From Caminibacter pacificus (lineage in GTDB: Bacteria; Campylobacterota; Campylobacteria; Campylobacterales; Nautiliaceae), in NCBI RefSeq assembly GCF_003752135.1, contig NZ_RJVK01000001.1, positions 620,001 through 684,000 on the forward strand: DNA of 64,000 nucleotides, in the 5' to 3' direction. A program made the position numbers and the translations under genes. Positions within the stretch are counted from its first letter, which is position 1; every line of letters begins with the position of its first letter. Positions 4,013-47,526 of this stretch are shown in pieces. Under the pieces are notes generated by a model. That model saw only the letters and a list, made by a program, of their open reading frames with translations. It had not been told where the DNA came from and ran no database searches.

Positions 4013-4426
4013 TTAACCTTCCGTATGAGCTTTATGGGCTTCGATTAAATATTTGATATCGTCAGTCATTACGAATACGTTTTTATATCCGAGCACGTCA
4101 AGAAGACCTTTTACTCTATTAGCAAAAAACGCTTTTCTACAAGCAACTACGATAGGCTGAGTTTTATCTTCAGGTAAAATATCCAAATATTCCGTAAATT
4201 CCGGATACGGAGTATAGTACGCTGTCGGAATTCCGGCTTCTTCAGCATTTTCACCTTCTACCAAATTAGGCAACGTTACATCAAGTAAAATAGCACCCGC
4301 ATCTTTTATCAGCTCTCTTGTTTTATGAATATCGATATTTCCAAGTCCCGGTTTTTCTTTATTAAGTTCAATTGCTTCTTTGAATCTTTCAACTACTTCT
4401 TGTTCAAATGGTGTTAATTTTGCCAT
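4013..4426 (-). CDS. Rhodanese-like protein
   Basis: A 137-residue soluble protein whose second half is a rhodanese-like fold. The putative active cysteine is Cys96 in VVACRKAFFANR, followed by LLDVLGYKNVFVM, which is the typical last strand of the fold. The N-terminal ~30 residues are helical and charged. Rhodaneses carry persulfide sulfur, so a sulfur-transfer role fits a sulfur-metabolising Campylobacterota, but this is inference. The gene has a consensus promoter (4454-4482) and an AAGGAGGGG ribosome site, so high expression is likely. Confidence 0.72.
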   Translation of the reverse strand: MAKLTPFEQEVVERFKEAIELNKEKPGLGNIDIHKTRELIKDAGAILLDVTLPNLVEGENAEEAGIPTAYYTPYPEFTEYLDILPEDKTQPIVVACRKAFFANRVKGLLDVLGYKNVFVMTDDIKYLIEAHKAHTEG

Positions 4427-4453: not shown

Positions 4454-4482
4454 ATTATAACTCAAGTTTATTGATTTGTCAA
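4454..4482 (-). promoter_or_regulatory. Consensus sigma-70 promoter of the rhodanese-like gene
   Basis: On the minus strand TTGACA (4477-4482) is followed after exactly 17 bases by TATAAT (4454-4459). Both boxes match the consensus in full, which is rare in this AT-rich genome where most promoters lack a -35 box. The predicted leader is about 20 bases with a strong AAGGAGGGG site. Confidence 0.85.
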
Positions 4483-5260: not shown

Positions 5261-5866
5261 ATGAAAGATTTAATTTTAAAAGTAACCGCAAGCAAGTGGA
5301 ACTATTATCTAAGCTTGATAACTGACGGTTTAACAGCTCTTGTGTTTTTAGTATTGAGTATAATTTACTCAAAAGACGTATGGGCGAGTATCGCTCTTTT
5401 TGTTCTTGGAGTTATCATATTTACATTTATAGAATACGCCGTACATGCTTGGCTTTTTCACGAAAACCATCCTTTAAAAGTTTTCATTGAAGGACACGCA
5501 CACCATCACCAAAACCCATTTAGTTACGACGCTATGCCGTTTTTTATGAGTGCGCTTATAGCTTCGATTTTCGTATGGTTATTTCATTTCATTATGCCTC
5601 TTGGAGACGCTTTTGCCATCGTAGGAGGTATGGCTCTTGGATATTTCAACTACGGAATTATGCACCACATTATGCATAGACGTGAATTTTCGAGCAAATA
5701 TTGGAGATATATGCAAGAGTTTCATTTCGTTCATCACAAAAAACCTAAAATGAACCACGGAATTACGACTGATATTTGGGATAGAGTATTCGGAACATAT
5801 TATCAATGGAATGAAGAAGACCTAAAAGGAATCGAAAAACTTAAAAGAGTAAAGAAAAAAGCTTAA
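5261..5866 (+). CDS. Fatty acid hydroxylase / sterol desaturase superfamily membrane protein
   Basis: A 201-residue membrane protein with about four hydrophobic segments and the histidine clusters of the di-iron hydroxylase superfamily. These include HAWLFHENH and GHAHHHQNP (about residues 62-86), then MHHIMH and FHFVHHKKP near 130-165. The histidines are expected to hold two irons facing the cytoplasm. The superfamily hydroxylates or desaturates lipid acyl chains using O2, which would be unusual in an anaerobe or microaerophile. The substrate cannot be read from sequence. The 3' end overlaps the convergent reverse gyrase gene by 26 bases. Confidence 0.78.
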   Translation: MKDLILKVTASKWNYYLSLITDGLTALVFLVLSIIYSKDVWASIALFVLGVIIFTFIEYAVHAWLFHENHPLKVFIEGHAHHHQNPFSYDAMPFFMSALIASIFVWLFHFIMPLGDAFAIVGGMALGYFNYGIMHHIMHRREFSSKYWRYMQEFHFVHHKKPKMNHGITTDIWDRVFGTYYQWNEEDLKGIEKLKRVKKKA

Positions 5867-8800
5867 TCAGTTCTTTTTTATAATCGCCTTTTCCCTCTTC
5901 TATTTCATCCATTAACTCTTCAAGTTTGGCTGTAAATTCTTCGCTTACAAACTCTTTATATTCGCTTTTATCTAAAATATCTATCACTTTAAACCCGAGT
6001 CTTGTCGCAAATAAAAAGCCGTGTTTTTCTATAATATATTTTCTCTCAAGCAGTTTTTCGATAGTAATTGCATAAGTTGAAGGTCTTCCGATTCCTTTTT
6101 CTTTCATCGTATCTATAACCTCGGCATAGGTAAAAGGAGTGAATTTACTTTTTTCGAAAATCTCTTTTTTCGCTTTGAATTCGCCTTCATTTACTTTTTT
6201 TATCTCAATTTCATATACCAAATCACACCCGTGTTCTAAAATTTCGGTTAAAAATTCAAACTCTTTATCAAAAAGCGAGAATTTCTCTTTTTTTACTACC
6301 GCCTCTTTCATTTGAGAAGCGATAAACCTTCTAAAAATCAAATCGTAAAGCTTTATATGTTCGTTTGTTAAATTTAGGTTTTTCATTAAAAGATAACTTT
6401 TTAAATCGTTCGCATCCATAGCGCTCGTAGCTCTTATCGCTTCGTGCGCTCCGCCGCTGCTTTCAAAACTCCTAAGCTTTACAAATTCGCTTCCGAATCT
6501 CTCTTTTATATACTCTTTTGCGATATGCTCTCCAAGCGGTGAAATTCTTATGGAATCGGTCCTATGATACGTAATAAATCCGCTTTCAAAAAGCTCTTGG
6601 GCCAATTTCATCGTTTTTTGAGGAGAAAATCTAAGCTTAAGAGCCGCTTCTTTCAAAAGAGCGGAAGTATTGAAAGGGGTAAAAATATAATTTTCAATTT
6701 CTTGAGATACTTTTTTAATAACGACTTTATCTATTTTTTCAAAAAACTCTTTTGCTTTTTGCTTATCTTCAAAAACAAACTCAAAATTTACATCACTAAC
6801 ACTCACTCTAACGACATAAATTTTCTCTTTTAAACTCTCCGTCCTCTCACAAATCCACCTAAGTACCGGTGTTTGTACTCTTCCGGCGGATAAATGAGCG
6901 TTTTTTAGAAGTTTTTGGAGATACTGAGAGATTTTAAATCCGACCCACCTATCCGAAATTCTTCTTAAAAACTGAGCCGCCACCCAATTTTTATTGACTT
7001 CTCTTAAATTATTTAGAGCTTCTTCGAATGCGTATTTGGTGATTTCGTGAAATTCGGCTCGTTTGATGTTGAAATTATAAGGTTTGTTGTTTAGTGTCAA
7101 GTCAAATGCAATTTTTTCTCCTTCTCTATCGGGGTCGGTTGCAATTATCACCTCTTCAACCTCGGCGGAAGTTAGATTGAAAGCATCCAAAATTTTATCT
7201 TTGTTTTCCAAAACATGAAAAATCGGGATATATTTATCCTTAACTCCCCAAACACCCTCATCATGTACCAAATCAAAATCATGACCTATACTCGCACTAA
7301 TAAGCAGTACCCTATTTTCGCTCAATATCTCATAAACACTCACTCCCTCAATCACTCTTCTTGAAGCTTTACCGAAAAATTCGCTTATGGTTTTTGCTTT
7401 TGTCGGCGATTCGACGACCACAAACGTAGTTTTTAGAGCTATTTTTTCTTCGCTTTTTCTACTTTCGTCAATTTCTTTTAAGATCTCATCCAAATCAAGA
7501 GTATTAATATCCACAAATTCGTTTTTAACAAACCAAGAAAGTCTCTTTTTTAAAGAATAAAAAGCCTTTTGATTATCCACAAGCGTTAAAGCAAGCCCTT
7601 TTGTAAGATGCCCTTTATAAAATCTACTCGACCTTCCGCTTGCTTGAATATATCCTGTAATATCCGCAACTATTAACTTTTCCGAGTCAAAACTGATTTC
7701 CGGAGAGTTTTTTATTTCGTTTTCGTATTTTTTAATAAACTTTTTTATTTTTTGAGAAATTTCACTCAGTTTTTTTTCGACGTTCGGATGCAATACGCTA
7801 AAAAATACGTACTTTTTCATAAATTCTATAGCTTTTTGAAATTCGATTTTTTCATCCTCGTTTAAAATATTATTTTTCAAAAGATAAGGATAAACGCTGA
7901 GCAATATAAAATACAAACTCCTGTAATTATCTTCACTAAGCCTAAACTCCATTTTCGGCACACCGACAAAAAGCGTATATCTGATGAACTCAGGCAAATC
8001 TATTCCTCTGGCAAGAGGGTTTTTATAACTCGCAAACCCTACGAAAAAACACTCTCCTTTTTTAAATTCTTCGATTTTTTCCTCAAATTCCTCATAAGAA
8101 TAGGCCTTTATCGAATTTTTTTTCAAAAACTCTATATATTCATAAACCTTTTCTTTGGATTCGTTACCAGGTAAAAACAAAAGTCCGCCTCTGCCAAGCC
8201 TTCTTATCCATTCAACCGACTTTTGCCAGGAATATTCAACGTCGTACGAATCGATTACGTTTCTTAATGACAAGTTGGGTCTGCTAATCTCAAATCCCAA
8301 AAGATACTTAAACAAAAGCACTCTTTTACTTTTAGGATTCGCCGTAGCCGAAGAGACTATCAGATTGCCTTTTTTCTTTTTTTGAAATTCCTGAAGTTTT
8401 TCGTACTCTTTTTTTTCAATCAGCCTCAATGCTTCGTCAATATCTTCTTTTGAAAATCCAACAAGCGACAAAACGTCATCGATTTTTTTGGCACTTTTAA
8501 GAATAGAATCAACATCATCTACAAAAACAAGTTTAAAATCTTTATTTATGATTTCTCTGTTTTTATACAAAAATTGAGTGGTCGTAATCAAAATATCGTA
8601 TTCACCGCTTTTTATTTTCTCTTTTTCTTGTTTTTTACCCGTATATGCCAAAACATCTATCCCCCAAGATTTAAACCTCTCAAGAGCTTGAAGCACAAGA
8701 AGTTTTGTTGGGAATATAATATAAGAGTTTTTCTCAAACGCACTGAGTAAAAGCCCGAATGTAGTTTTTCCTATTCCTGTCGGAGCAAGAAGAGCAAACG

Positions 8801-9062
8801 AATTATCCAAAAAATATCTCTTAGCCCACATTTTTTGAATATCGCTCAAATCATTACCTGTTTTTGAATGAAAAAAATCGTTAAATTCTTCCAATTTCTC
8901 TTTTGCTTTGCAAAATTTTTCATAAAACATTAAATTTTCACAATTTTCAAACGATTTAATCTCACTCATACATTTATCGCAAAACTCTCCGTTTTGAAGC
9001 CTGTTTGAAGTGATGTCGCCGTGACATCTCGGACATCTGTTTTTGTATATCGATTCGAGCAT
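5841..9062 (-). CDS. rgy: Reverse gyrase (helicase-topoisomerase IA fusion)
   Basis: A 1073-residue single-chain reverse gyrase, which introduces positive supercoils using ATP and is the hallmark protein of hyperthermophiles. Order of parts: an N-terminal zinc finger (CPRC at 10-13, CDKC at 28-31); an SF2 helicase with Walker A APTGIGKTT and the DDVD box typical of this family; then a topoisomerase IA half from about residue 545 with Toprim VVESPTKAK and TDPDREGE, the catalytic tyrosine in FITYHRTDS, and IGRPSTYA near the end. The second zinc finger seen at the start of the topoisomerase half in many reverse gyrases is not apparent. The frame is intact throughout. Confidence 0.97.
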   Translation of the reverse strand: MLESIYKNRCPRCHGDITSNRLQNGEFCDKCMSEIKSFENCENLMFYEKFCKAKEKLEEFNDFFHSKTGNDLSDIQKMWAKRYFLDNSFALLAPTGIGKTTFGLLLSAFEKNSYIIFPTKLLVLQALERFKSWGIDVLAYTGKKQEKEKIKSGEYDILITTTQFLYKNREIINKDFKLVFVDDVDSILKSAKKIDDVLSLVGFSKEDIDEALRLIEKKEYEKLQEFQKKKKGNLIVSSATANPKSKRVLLFKYLLGFEISRPNLSLRNVIDSYDVEYSWQKSVEWIRRLGRGGLLFLPGNESKEKVYEYIEFLKKNSIKAYSYEEFEEKIEEFKKGECFFVGFASYKNPLARGIDLPEFIRYTLFVGVPKMEFRLSEDNYRSLYFILLSVYPYLLKNNILNEDEKIEFQKAIEFMKKYVFFSVLHPNVEKKLSEISQKIKKFIKKYENEIKNSPEISFDSEKLIVADITGYIQASGRSSRFYKGHLTKGLALTLVDNQKAFYSLKKRLSWFVKNEFVDINTLDLDEILKEIDESRKSEEKIALKTTFVVVESPTKAKTISEFFGKASRRVIEGVSVYEILSENRVLLISASIGHDFDLVHDEGVWGVKDKYIPIFHVLENKDKILDAFNLTSAEVEEVIIATDPDREGEKIAFDLTLNNKPYNFNIKRAEFHEITKYAFEEALNNLREVNKNWVAAQFLRRISDRWVGFKISQYLQKLLKNAHLSAGRVQTPVLRWICERTESLKEKIYVVRVSVSDVNFEFVFEDKQKAKEFFEKIDKVVIKKVSQEIENYIFTPFNTSALLKEAALKLRFSPQKTMKLAQELFESGFITYHRTDSIRISPLGEHIAKEYIKERFGSEFVKLRSFESSGGAHEAIRATSAMDANDLKSYLLMKNLNLTNEHIKLYDLIFRRFIASQMKEAVVKKEKFSLFDKEFEFLTEILEHGCDLVYEIEIKKVNEGEFKAKKEIFEKSKFTPFTYAEVIDTMKEKGIGRPSTYAITIEKLLERKYIIEKHGFLFATRLGFKVIDILDKSEYKEFVSEEFTAKLEELMDEIEEGKGDYKKELIKLFSLLF

Positions 9063-40024: not shown

Positions 40025-41902
40025 TTAATCAATCCAATGTTTTACTAGCTTTATTGTTTCACTTTTTGGTTCATAACCTGTTTTTATTTCATAAACTGAA
40101 ATGATAATTGGCATTGGTATTGCTAAACCTGCGAGAATACAAGTACCCGTAGGTAATATAGATAAATATTCAAATGACAATCTATCTAAATAAGAAATTG
40201 TTCTTTCTACCGCTTCAATGTCTTTATTATTAATTAATCTATGCAAAAAATAATTATGCAATTGTGAAATTATTGTTGAAGAAATATCTGAAGGCCTTTG
40301 ACTTGCAATAGTTAAAAAAACTCCGAATTTTCTACCTTCTTTAATAATTTCTTCAAATGTTTCTAATCTATATTCTTTCCACTGTTCACTTTCTCTATTA
40401 GAAATGGGAGATAATATGTTATGTGCTTCATCAATAATTATATTTAAATATTTCTTATTATCTAAATTTTTATTAACCTTTTGTTCTTCATAAAGTTGTT
40501 TAACAATCAATAAAGGTAAAATTTTCTTTATCTCAGAATTAACATTTTTTAACGAAATTATATTCATTAGATTTAAACTATTTTCACTGTAATTATCTAT
40601 AACTTCTATTACTTTTTCTAAGTAATTTATTCTTCTAAGTCTTTTTAATAATGGTGCAATAAATTCCATATTCATATTTTTTTCAAGTTTATCATTATAA
40701 AATTGAAAAATAATTTTTAAAGGAATTTTTAAAAAATTATCCTCAATTTTTTCCGGAAAACTATTAAAATTATAATTTTTAATTTCTTTAACCAACTCTT
40801 CTCTATGATCATTAAAATATAAGCGTTTATCATTATTAAAATAAGTGTTGTTAGGCTGTATATAATACACTTCACTTGAAGAATGATAGATAAAACTATT
40901 AATAAAATTAATAAACATTATATAATCTTCTTGATCATTAATATGTAATATTTTCCCAATTTCTTCTAAAAAATTTTGTATATCTGACATTGCAAACTTT
41001 TTTTCAAGCATCATTATTATAAAATTTAAAAAATAAATTTTAAAGTTTTCAAAATCCACTTCCATTTTAAAAGACCTTTTTAAAAAAGGAATTTGTGTTT
41101 TTTCAGTAGCATTCAAATAAATGGCCCAAAACTCTATATCTTCAAAATATTTCTTTAATATAGGAAACTTATCTTTTGAATTTCTTGTATTTAAATTAAA
41201 TGTTTTTTTGTATTCAGGTTCAATAATTGTATAATCTCTTTCTTTATCATCAATTAAATATTCTCCATTAAAATCTATTAAGACAAATCTTGATGTCTTG
41301 TGAAAATTCTTATTATTTTTGAACTTTTCTAATAATTCATGATATAATTTAGCTAAAGTATAAGACTTTCCACTACCCGTATTACCAAAAATACCTATAT
41401 GACTTGCAAAAAGTTTATCTATACTTACTTTAATATCCTGATTATCTTCTAAAGCTAATTTACCTATAACTATACTTCCATAATTTTCTTCTTCTCCCAA
41501 ATCTAAAAAATTATGTACCATATTAAATTCTTTATTATCTAATAAATAACACTCATTAAAAACTAAAGGCATTTCTTTTATACCTTGAAAAAATTTATTT
41601 CTTTCAATATATCCAAGCAAACTAACTAATAGATATCTATTAATTTTTTCAGATTGTTTATAATAAGCTAAATTTATACTTTTATCTTCTTCAATGTATT
41701 CTCCTTCAACTTTTCCAATAATTTTAATATAACCTTTAACAATTTTTATATAACTTCCAACAGAAATATTTTTAATTATTTGCCCTTGATAAAAAATATA
41801 AGAAGAGTTTTTATTTTTATCTACTTTTATTTTTATTTTTCTTCCATCAACCGAATAAACTTCACCTATTCGAAAAACTGATTCTTTTTCAAATTCCTTC
41901 AT
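40025..41902 (-). CDS. herA: HerA-type ATPase of a SIR2-HerA defence pair
   Basis: A 625-residue FtsK/HerA-family ATPase. The N-terminal HAS-barrel region covers about 1-95, Walker A is FGNTGSGKSYT (about residue 172), Walker B is LNIIIDEAHN (about 490), and the FLTIASQRPSD sensor follows. It is preceded by a SIR2-like NADase gene with a one-base overlap. Such pairs are reported as anti-phage systems in which the HerA ring and SIR2 form a complex that depletes NAD. The gene is markedly more AT-rich than its neighbours and ends directly beside a tRNA, which suggests horizontal acquisition. Confidence 0.88.
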   Translation of the reverse strand: MKEFEKESVFRIGEVYSVDGRKIKIKVDKNKNSSYIFYQGQIIKNISVGSYIKIVKGYIKIIGKVEGEYIEEDKSINLAYYKQSEKINRYLLVSLLGYIERNKFFQGIKEMPLVFNECYLLDNKEFNMVHNFLDLGEEENYGSIVIGKLALEDNQDIKVSIDKLFASHIGIFGNTGSGKSYTLAKLYHELLEKFKNNKNFHKTSRFVLIDFNGEYLIDDKERDYTIIEPEYKKTFNLNTRNSKDKFPILKKYFEDIEFWAIYLNATEKTQIPFLKRSFKMEVDFENFKIYFLNFIIMMLEKKFAMSDIQNFLEEIGKILHINDQEDYIMFINFINSFIYHSSSEVYYIQPNNTYFNNDKRLYFNDHREELVKEIKNYNFNSFPEKIEDNFLKIPLKIIFQFYNDKLEKNMNMEFIAPLLKRLRRINYLEKVIEVIDNYSENSLNLMNIISLKNVNSEIKKILPLLIVKQLYEEQKVNKNLDNKKYLNIIIDEAHNILSPISNRESEQWKEYRLETFEEIIKEGRKFGVFLTIASQRPSDISSTIISQLHNYFLHRLINNKDIEAVERTISYLDRLSFEYLSILPTGTCILAGLAIPMPIIISVYEIKTGYEPKSETIKLVKHWID

Positions 41903-43032
41903 TAATCTTCCTTAATTTCTTTAATCTCTTTCAAAATATTTTCAAAATCATGATTTATATTTTCAAAATCATATTGATAGTTTTCTTGTGGTTTTATAAT
42001 ATGTAAATTATTGTTTTTAATTTTAGTATTCTCAATTTCAATATGTTTGACCCCATTGCCATCATAGTCATAAACGAATACATTTAATAATGGATTATAA
42101 TTTAATGCTCTAATAGTTATATCTCTAATATGCTCATCAGCAAAAGAAAAACCAATTACAATTAGAATAGTATTCTCTTTTTCTAATTCATTAGAAAAAA
42201 TTCTTAATAATTCATAATGAGTCTTTTTAAAAACAGTTTCTTGAAATTTTTCTTTAGTCGGATTAATAATTTGTAATTTTTCATAACTTTCAATAAACTG
42301 TTTTATTATATCTTTCTTTTTTTGTAAAATTTCAAAATCATTTTTAGTAATAATTTTTTTAATCTCATCATAAGTTTTAGTTTGATCTTCTATAGCTGTA
42401 ATATTTATTGAATTTAATAATTTATTTATTTCTTTTAATAATGATAAATTTAAATCAAGTATTATTTCTCCTTCATCGTATTTCCAATTTACTGAACCAT
42501 GTAATTTATAAATATTAAATATTGGTATTTCAGACATTTTATTGAAAAATAAACTTTCTTTATGAAATGTCCTTCTAAAACTACTTAAATCAAGTTTTGG
42601 TTTAAATCTTCCAAAAAAACCATCATTAAAATCATAATTTAATTGATCTAAAACATATTCATGAAAAATATCAATATTAGTAGTAAAAACATTAATTTGT
42701 TTTGAAAATAAATTACTTTTCCTTTCAAAAATCAACGCTCTTATTATTTTAAAAAAATTTTCATAATTTTTTTTCACACGAAGAAAATTTATTTCTGTAG
42801 TATTTTTTAAAATATCTATATTTGATTTCATAGCTATTTGATAATATTCTCGATAAAAAAGAAACTTCAATAATAAATATTCCTCTTCATTAATATTTTT
42901 ATCTTTATCTAAATCGGTTAACCAATTTTCAATATTCGATAATACACCAAAAAAAGGAACAGAAGCACCTGACCCTATTAAAAAATTAATATTTGAATTT
43001 TCAATTATTTTTTTATTTATTTTCAATTCCAT
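41902..43032 (-). CDS. SIR2-like NADase of a SIR2-HerA defence pair
   Basis: A 376-residue SIR2-fold protein. The NAD loop is LIGSGAS (18-24), the catalytic segment is VFTTNID, and the conserved His is in YKLHGSVNW. VIGFSFADEHIRD closes the fold. In defence systems this fold hydrolyses NAD+ after phage sensing. Asn and His at the expected catalytic positions argue for activity. It is AT-rich with few G/C-ending codons. An ATG preceded by AGAGGA and a TATAAT box at 43064-43069 give it its own promoter. Confidence 0.88.
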   Translation of the reverse strand: MELKINKKIIENSNINFLIGSGASVPFFGVLSNIENWLTDLDKDKNINEEEYLLLKFLFYREYYQIAMKSNIDILKNTTEINFLRVKKNYENFFKIIRALIFERKSNLFSKQINVFTTNIDIFHEYVLDQLNYDFNDGFFGRFKPKLDLSSFRRTFHKESLFFNKMSEIPIFNIYKLHGSVNWKYDEGEIILDLNLSLLKEINKLLNSINITAIEDQTKTYDEIKKIITKNDFEILQKKKDIIKQFIESYEKLQIINPTKEKFQETVFKKTHYELLRIFSNELEKENTILIVIGFSFADEHIRDITIRALNYNPLLNVFVYDYDGNGVKHIEIENTKIKNNNLHIIKPQENYQYDFENINHDFENILKEIKEIKED

Positions 43033-45601: not shown

Positions 45602-46387
45602 ATGAGAGAAGTTTTTAAGTACACATTTACAACAATTGCGGAGTGGAAAAAACTTCTGCTTGTAATTTTAACCGTCTCGATTCTAACCGTTATCGAAGCT
45701 TTTCCGGTAATCAGCATTGTAGCGTTTTTGTTTGAAAAGCTAATTTATCTGAGTATCGGAGCATTTTTAATTTTTTTAGTCACTCGCTCAAAAGATATCG
45801 AAAGCTATTTTGACAACCTAAAAAGAAACTCTTTTTCTACGTTTTTATTTCATTTCATTCCAACTGCCAGCGGTATTTTGGTCGCTCTTTTGATTATTTT
45901 GACGTTTTGGATTATGTTTTTCGTTCTTATTTTACAATTCACTAACACAATGTATATTATCGCCGATCCTCATCAAATAATCGTTTCAGTAGAAAATTCT
46001 CCGGTTTTAACACAAATACTTTTAGGATTTTATTCTATCTATTTGATGTTTTATTCTTATGTATTCTTAGGAAAATTCGGAGAAGCTCTATCTCAAGAAA
46101 CATTTAGAGGAGCGTTTTTGAGTATGATATCTTCTTTAATTGATTTCAAATATTGGATAAATACGTTTAATCTAAAATATTTCGTAATCTATTTGGTTTG
46201 GAGTATCATCATTTCGGTTATTTACACGCTTATCGGTTTTACTTATCTTTTTGTAATTTTCCCGGCAATTGTTAACAATCCGAATTTAGGGCTTATCATT
46301 ATTCCTATTTTAGTGGGAATTACTACGATTCTTACTTACTATACGTTTTTCAGTGCTTATTTTGCACACCTAAGCACCGAGGCTTAG
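45602..46387 (+). CDS. Polytopic membrane protein of unknown function
   Basis: A 261-residue inner-membrane protein with about six hydrophobic helices in pairs, and no signal peptide. No motif for a known transporter family is visible. The AAAGGATATAA ribosome site supports the ATG. It diverges from asnB and overlaps the convergent duplicated protein gene by four bases. Confidence 0.75.
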   Translation: MREVFKYTFTTIAEWKKLLLVILTVSILTVIEAFPVISIVAFLFEKLIYLSIGAFLIFLVTRSKDIESYFDNLKRNSFSTFLFHFIPTASGILVALLIILTFWIMFFVLILQFTNTMYIIADPHQIIVSVENSPVLTQILLGFYSIYLMFYSYVFLGKFGEALSQETFRGAFLSMISSLIDFKYWINTFNLKYFVIYLVWSIIISVIYTLIGFTYLFVIFPAIVNNPNLGLIIIPILVGITTILTYYTFFSAYFAHLSTEA

Positions 46388-47454
46388 GCGATATCCATCG
46401 CTGAGCTCGGTTTTTCTTCTACTATTCTTACATTTTGTGCGATTTGAGGAATCGGTACCACTTTTGTTTTAGTTACCACTCTTTGTGGCAAGTGAATTTC
46501 ATGACCTCTTACGTGGATTGTTGTCGGTCTTATTGTCATTTTATATGTAATTTTTACGCCGTATACTTTATTTCCAAATCTGTTTTTAAATTCGCCAGGC
46601 CCTTCCACTCTCAAATCAAACGCATCGGCAGGGAAATATAATCTTTTTGCATACTCTCTTTTTTTACCAGGATGATAGTATACAAGCCACAATACTTTAG
46701 CGCCGCCTTTATATCTGAGCTCTGTCGGAACGTATGTACTTGCTTTTTCTTCTTCTTCAAGGAGTTTAGCCAAATAATCCTCAGCCGTAGTTTCGAAATC
46801 TTGGTCGCTGATTGATTCGTAAAATCTATCCCATCCGTTTACTTCCGCTACGATATTCGCAAGTTCCACACTTCTTTCTTTTTCGGCATTTATAAGTTTA
46901 TCGATAGCTGCTAAAACTCCTTCGTCAAAATGTTCTTCGAAACTCTCAAGATAAGGCAATGTAGATAAAATATCGACAGCTTTTTTTAATTTATCCAAAC
47001 ATTCGACATTTTCGCATAAAACCATACCTTTTCTAATATCACAGAATTCTTTTCTAAGCTCTTCTAAAATATCTACGCCGAGTTTCAAGCTAAATAGTGA
47101 ATTAGTAAGTTCTTCGACGATTTTTTCAGGAATTTTTTTGAGTTCGTCTTCGATATTGATTTCGCTTTTCCAAGGTTCATAGCTTCTATCGAAGTTTTTA
47201 TATTTTGCTACGTAGTTTGCAGTTTTTACAGTTACTCTGTTTTCTTCCAAAGCTACATTTCTTAATTCTTCTATTTTATCACCGAATTTTTTTTGCCAAA
47301 AAGGAGAATAAGTGAGAGTACATAAATAATCACTTCTTTTTTTAAGGTCGGTAAGTTCCGCCGCTTCTTTTACGTTTAACATTTCGTCTCTAATAATACA
47401 ATTAATTCTTCTGATATCCTCTACTGATTCCACTCTTCCGTAGATTCTTGCCAT
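46384..47454 (-). CDS. Unknown protein with an internal ~120-residue duplication
   Basis: A 356-residue soluble protein, not recognised. Numbered from the first of two adjacent Met codons, two halves align with an offset of 119-120. The shared pattern is C-x-I-R, then LKK-x2-D-x-L-x-TL-x-Y, then AN-x-VA-x5-DR-x-YE. It is seen at residues 20-93 (C20, L38KK, D43, AN80, DR90) and 139-213 (C139, L157KK, D162, AN200, DR210). The C-terminal ~110 residues (about 245-357) look beta-rich and end in a proline/valine-rich tail. A near-consensus promoter (47497-47526) and an AAGGAGG site suggest high expression. The second ATG (47454) has the correct spacing. Confidence 0.78.
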   Translation of the reverse strand: MARIYGRVESVEDIRRINCIIRDEMLNVKEAAELTDLKKRSDYLCTLTYSPFWQKKFGDKIEELRNVALEENRVTVKTANYVAKYKNFDRSYEPWKSEINIEDELKKIPEKIVEELTNSLFSLKLGVDILEELRKEFCDIRKGMVLCENVECLDKLKKAVDILSTLPYLESFEEHFDEGVLAAIDKLINAEKERSVELANIVAEVNGWDRFYESISDQDFETTAEDYLAKLLEEEEKASTYVPTELRYKGGAKVLWLVYYHPGKKREYAKRLYFPADAFDLRVEGPGEFKNRFGNKVYGVKITYKMTIRPTTIHVRGHEIHLPQRVVTKTKVVPIPQIAQNVRIVEEKPSSAMDIA

Positions 47455-47469
47455 CATCCCCTCCTTAAA

Positions 47470-47513
47470 AACTTTTGATTTAATTTTCTTTTAATTATTA
47501 TATAACAAAAGTT
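47470..47513. repeat. Inverted repeat enclosing a -10 box
   Basis: AACTTTTG (47470-47477) and CAAAAGTT (47506-47513) form a perfect 8-bp inverted repeat with a 28-base interior containing the TATAAT of the duplicated-protein promoter. It could be an operator or chance in AT-rich DNA. Confidence 0.4.
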
Positions 47514-47526
47514 GAGGGGATGTCAA
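47497..47526 (-). promoter_or_regulatory. Near-consensus promoter of the duplicated protein gene
   Basis: On the minus strand TTGACA (47521-47526) and TATAAT (47497-47502) are spaced 18 bases. Both hexamers are perfect. Confidence 0.8.

Follow-up and report, generated by a model that had tools for sequence, protein, structure and literature searches.

The window analysed here, a stretch of 64,000 nucleotides from Caminibacter pacificus, encodes on its reverse strand a protein that is the product of an internal duplication and whose family, among the Campylobacterota sampled, is confined to genomes with a full-length reverse gyrase. Because the host's relatives that have the family all carry reverse gyrase, the hallmark enzyme of high-temperature life, the protein is a candidate heat-adaptation protein. 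The initial annotation had described the duplication and the promoter of the gene; the wide, thermophile-associated distribution of the family, its phyletic link to reverse gyrase and its operon link to DUF505 are new.

Internal duplication and predicted architecture

The gene, stop codon included, occupies positions 46384-47457 (reverse strand) and encodes 357 amino acids from its first ATG or 356 from a second ATG at 47454. Translation probably begins at the second, since the proteins of relatives begin at the corresponding methionine and the Shine-Dalgarno sequence AAGGAGG (47460-47466, reverse strand, thus read from 47466 to 47460) is better spaced from it (5 nt, as against 2 nt from the first ATG).

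The two halves of the protein are homologous, and the duplication of about 120 residues proposed in the initial annotation is real. In the self-alignment that the annotation had suggested as a check, residues 1-115 against 116-245 give a significant local score of 106, whereas 2000 shuffled sequences average 30.7 (sd 5.5) and none exceeds 57; blastp matches repeat 1 to repeat 2 of the window protein with an E value of 1.5e-9. The constant offset of 119-120 residues noted earlier is likewise found in the alignment, as 119 and then 120 residues. As expected of a true ancient duplication, the signal is stronger in distant homologues and in profiles: the repeat pair of a Thermodesulfatator homologue scores 201 (E 1e-25), those of Aquificota homologues score 162-193, and profile-profile comparison of the two repeats gives a probability of 99.3 and an E value of 2e-20. 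Fifteen positions are identical between the repeats, each conserved on either side in 85% or more of the alignment rows (R16/R135, C20/C139, R23/R142, M26/M145, L35/L154, L38/L157, K39/K158, D43/D162, L45/L164, L48/L167, Y50/Y169, E72/E192, V77/V197, A80/A200 and N81/N201).

Structure prediction, also put forward in the annotation as a check, returns duplicated three-helix units followed by an all-β C-terminal domain. The AlphaFold2 model of the full-length protein, built from 26 aligned homologues (mean pLDDT 79.6, pTM 0.62), has two units of three main helices, corresponding to repeat 1 (residues 12-99; 47161-47424, reverse strand), which holds the most conserved block, RINCIIRDEML...LKKRSDYLCTLTYSPFW, and to repeat 2 (residues 131-219; 46801-47067, reverse strand). 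Beyond them lies a C-terminal meander (residues 250-357; 46387-46710, reverse strand), which had been called β-rich from the letters and is all-β in the prediction; when it is modelled alone, most of its residues have a pLDDT of about 91, and the first 16 are disordered. Each of the seven members measured has an acidic repeat 2 (net -8 to -13) and a basic C-terminal domain (net +8 to +15, pI 9.7-10.5), and the pI of the whole protein, 5.6-6.9, is neutral to slightly acidic. As no segment is sufficiently hydrophobic, no membrane helix is predicted.

The family is under strong purifying selection, with a dN/dS of 0.02-0.11 that is a rough estimate because dS is near saturation. Conservation is concentrated in residues 16-60 of repeat 1, and a second conserved set lies in the β domain. 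When Nautiliaceae sequences are compared with those of Thermodesulfobacteriota, identity is about 90% over residues 46-60 and about 18% over residues 106-120, which places the functional core in repeat 1. Across 38 sequences drawn from the three main clades, Cys20, Cys46 and Cys139 never vary; they are the only conserved cysteines in the family, and no histidine is conserved.

The initial annotation could assign the protein to no family, and that judgement stands in every library searched: Pfam, NCBIfam, PHROGs, PADLOC and the sequences of the PDB gave only sub-threshold scatter, Foldseek gave nothing below an E value of 0.09 for the whole model (PDB, BFVD) or for the C-terminal domain alone (PDB), and no known repeat-free family matched the full length. 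The family thus has no name in these libraries and may have one in COG, PANTHER or the AlphaFold DB, which were not among them. One comparison in architecture is with PhoU and PhoU-like proteins: the helices predicted for the window protein would fit two three-helix units like theirs, and the PhoU-like chain 3l39 has the highest Foldseek probability among the PDB matches listed for the full-length model (0.41), at an E value of 0.38. The window protein differs in its extra β domain and in its lack of a Pfam PhoU match at E values up to 10; nor does PhoU appear in the family listings of 26 members at E values up to 1, and no acidic pair at i, i+4, as in the E(D)xxxD metal-binding motifs of PhoU, is conserved at 90% or more. 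The C-terminal domain weakly resembles HU/IHF in fold (Foldseek probability 0.38-0.63) and in its basic charge, but the E values of 1.5-3.1 are not significant, Pfam gives no match, and the domain has a much longer β meander and no HU helices. Rad52/Rad22 (PF04098) was considered and rejected, as its fragments score 13-16 bits in the members shown against a curated cut-off of 20.3 and fall at different places in different members. The searches for a viral or plasmid origin of the gene likewise found nothing convincing, with no relatives in IMG/VR, no significant PHROG and only a partial match to phage G at 27% identity (E 9e-3).

Distribution among thermophiles and reverse gyrase

A first scan of the collection, which required exact 8-residue matches and therefore missed the main Aquificota clade, found 25 loci; the vent-only distribution once considered was withdrawn when a later profile search of genomes recovered that clade. 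In the profile search of 397 Campylobacterota, the family is present in one copy each in eight of nine Nautiliaceae and in four genomes of the Nitratiruptor group (genus g14 of family f8, the genus and family names being inferred from named loci). It also occurs in 5 of 297 genomes of the phylum of Thermodesulfatator, in 1 of 301 of the phylum of a MAG titled Chloroflexota, and in 33 of 136 of the phylum of a MAG titled Aquificota, where 31 copies are full length, one is a fragment and one is decayed. The decayed copy (genome G1011, L126:5471-5943, reverse strand) retains only residues from about 196 to 354, in several frames and with a stop. Hosts outside the Campylobacterota and Thermodesulfobacteriota also come from thermophile groups. 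The family is a large one, full length in Nautiliaceae, Nitratiruptor, Thermodesulfobacteriota and a few further thermophile MAGs as well as in the Aquificota counted above, and its distribution, which the initial annotation did not address, is of thermophile type.

The tree of the family has three main clades, those of the Campylobacterota, Aquificota and Thermodesulfobacteriota. The Nautiliaceae part of the tree includes two Aquificota copies (97/91 support), and the Thermodesulfobacteriota are joined by copies from several MAGs that bear the titles Chloroflexota, WOR-3 and Deferribacteres; such nested placements suggest that the gene has been transferred between thermophile phyla. Mis-binning might instead account for copies in MAGs of other phyla. 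Locus and bin agree in composition for the Chloroflexota and Aquificota MAGs and, judged from a single usable contig, for the WOR-3 MAG, an agreement that is weak evidence against mis-binning because bins are themselves made by composition; for the Deferribacteres MAG the comparison favours neither origin.

Within the Campylobacterota, 17 of the 397 genomes have a full-length reverse gyrase; the family is found in 12 of these 17 and in none of the other 380. As the remaining five (G013, G029, G036, G056 and G257) do without it, the family is not needed for thermophily as such. The sole sampled Nautiliaceae genome that lacks the family, G223, has a truncated reverse gyrase, the loss of which is apparently recent. 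On its contig C4 (L080:1600-3109) only the topoisomerase half is present, with a frame break, and the 1.6 kb upstream holds no helicase half. Among the Thermodesulfobacteriota, reverse gyrase is found in all five carriers of the sample and in none of the 15 family-negative genomes tested. In some carrier MAGs (G401, G402, G404, G406, G407 and G408) it is absent or partial, which may reflect incompleteness. The association is strong in pattern and, since few lineages are involved, rests on a handful of independent events.

Reverse gyrase (TIGR01054) and the duplicated family are alike in having similar host sets in the Campylobacterota and Thermodesulfobacteriota, in being absent or broken in G223 and in having apparently spread between thermophile phyla. 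They differ in that they have no sequence or fold relation, and reverse gyrase is the wider of the two, by the five Campylobacterota given above. Nor is there physical linkage between the two genes, which lie 37 kb apart in the window, where a full-length reverse gyrase occupies 5841-9062 (reverse strand), and some 115 kb apart in G004. The literature describes reverse gyrase as the sole protein common to all hyperthermophiles and absent from mesophiles (PMC6878951), and in N. profundicola its gene is up more than 100-fold at 20 °C above the optimum (PMC2628731).

Promoter and gene neighbourhood

The near-consensus promoter described in the initial annotation proves to match the consensus at 12 of 12 positions, with TTGACA (47526-47521), an 18-nt spacer and TATAAT (47502-47497) spanning 47497-47526 on the reverse strand. 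The window has just one other perfect TTGACA/TATAAT site; ten Markov sequences used as a control gave none. The pattern, which occurs a single time in the genome, is largely kept in relatives: TTGAC..TATAAT precedes eight of nine examined Nautiliaceae homologues, and the ninth is slightly off. The promoter suggests that the protein may be abundant. Other genes of the host have good promoters too: groES and hsp20 are also preceded by near-consensus ones. As to heat-shock regulation, comparison of the upstream regions with those of these two genes revealed neither a shared operator nor a CIRCE element. A sigma-32-like reading of the Thermodesulfobacteriota promoters was dropped, the sites reading as ordinary sigma-70 and the hsp20 promoters there being similar. 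Several Nautiliaceae promoters, that of the window (47497-47526) included, contain an inverted repeat, TTGA-N7-TCAA, which is not kept in all; overlapping the -35 element, it is a possible small operator. The other perfect promoter of the window, TTGACA-17-TATAAT at 4482 (reverse strand), precedes a small ORF (4013-4426) that by eye is rhodanese-like and has a homologue near the family's gene in a Nitratiruptor-group locus (L099).

The neighbours of the gene in the window are a convergent membrane-protein ORF and genes for an asparagine synthase, a radical-SAM protein and an aspartate-semialdehyde dehydrogenase, in an arrangement kept only within the Nautiliaceae. A SIR2 gene (41902-43032; PADLOC E 1e-58) and a HerA gene (40025-41902; E 1e-172) stand side by side at 40025-43032 on the reverse strand and, by their PADLOC profiles, would form an anti-phage defence pair of the SIR2-HerA type. 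EF-G adjoins the duplicated gene in two loci and is not a general neighbour.

In 13 of 20 Aquificota loci (L108, L109, L111-L119, L121 and L122) the gene lies 20-85 bp downstream of a same-strand DUF505 gene (PF04458, E 1e-254), with which it probably shares an operon. These fall in two otherwise different neighbourhoods, so that the pair itself is conserved. DUF505 is an unrelated protein with no significant similarity to the duplicated one; read by eye, its C-terminal part may consist of winged helices. A literature search for its function found no paper in the collection covered, the matches read concerning DUF5059 instead.

Possible functions of the family

The preferred reading, a tentative one held with somewhat less than even confidence, is that of a cytosolic heat-adaptation protein that probably binds nucleic acid or nucleoprotein. 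A single-copy cytosolic family of thermophilic bacteria, combining a duplicated three-helix unit with a basic all-β C-terminal domain, would help the cell to live at or survive high temperature, and its most likely mode of action would be to bind nucleic acid or nucleoprotein. Contact with the ligand could then be made by the basic β domain, with the helical repeats serving in dimerisation or in binding a partner. The role in heat adaptation is one that we infer; the ligand is a guess, prompted by the basic β domain, the phyletic link with reverse gyrase and the pairing with DUF505. Against this reading stand the lack of any significant match to a nucleic-acid-binding family, fold or motif, the HU/IHF fold having E values above 1, the absence of the family from five Campylobacterota with reverse gyrase and from about three quarters of the Aquificota, the small number of independent lineages behind the phyletic pattern, and the slight acidity to neutrality of the protein as a whole. 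The fuller proposal, of a new nucleic-acid- or nucleoprotein-binding heat-adaptation family that works alongside reverse gyrase (and with DUF505 in the Aquificota), has spread by transfer and is lost with reverse gyrase, is doubtful when taken as a whole.

That repeat 2 and the C-terminal domain are oppositely charged in every member measured could also point to a self-assembling or scaffold protein, in which the acidic repeat 2 of one chain attracts the basic C-terminal domain of its neighbour to build an abundant oligomer that stabilises cell components. The strong promoter and the lack of any enzyme-like motif or library match agree with such a polymer, but no capsid, shell or S-layer family or fold was matched, and conservation centred on residues 16-60 of repeat 1 is unlike that of a purely electrostatic one; a scaffold is an unlikely explanation. 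The conserved residues themselves could instead form the site of an enzyme or a ligand- or cofactor-binding protein, made up of the three invariant cysteines with the paired Arg, Lys, Asp, Glu and Asn positions among the 15 kept in both repeats, and serving a shared chemolithoautotrophic metabolism rather than temperature. Most of the recognised hosts are chemolithotrophs, and in one Aquificota subclade genes that by eye resemble those of aconitase and isocitrate dehydrogenase lie a few kb downstream. Other clades do not retain these metabolic genes, however, three conserved cysteines with no conserved histidine do not make a standard metal site, and 385 of the 397 sampled Campylobacterota, a phylum with many mesophilic vent chemolithoautotrophs, lack the family; a metabolic role of this kind is improbable.

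The pairing with DUF505 allows a further explanation, in which the duplicated protein functions solely within a complex with DUF505, perhaps as its sensor or co-repressor. The same-strand adjacency across two wider contexts in the Aquificota speaks for it, as does the presence, in two Thermodesulfatator-type genomes, of a DUF505 gene at a distance of about 5 kb. No DUF505 lies near the gene in the window, in other Nautiliaceae, in Nitratiruptor or in the other Aquificota loci; obligate dependence on that partner is decidedly improbable.

What gives the preferred reading, that of a heat-adaptation protein, its interest is that the presence of the family is nested within the reverse-gyrase-bearing Campylobacterota and that its only absence from the sampled Nautiliaceae coincides with the decay of reverse gyrase. 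As the protein is small, single-copy and predicted to be soluble, it should be easy to express and test. If the reading is true, the family would provide a second handle, beside reverse gyrase, on how bacteria acquire heat tolerance.
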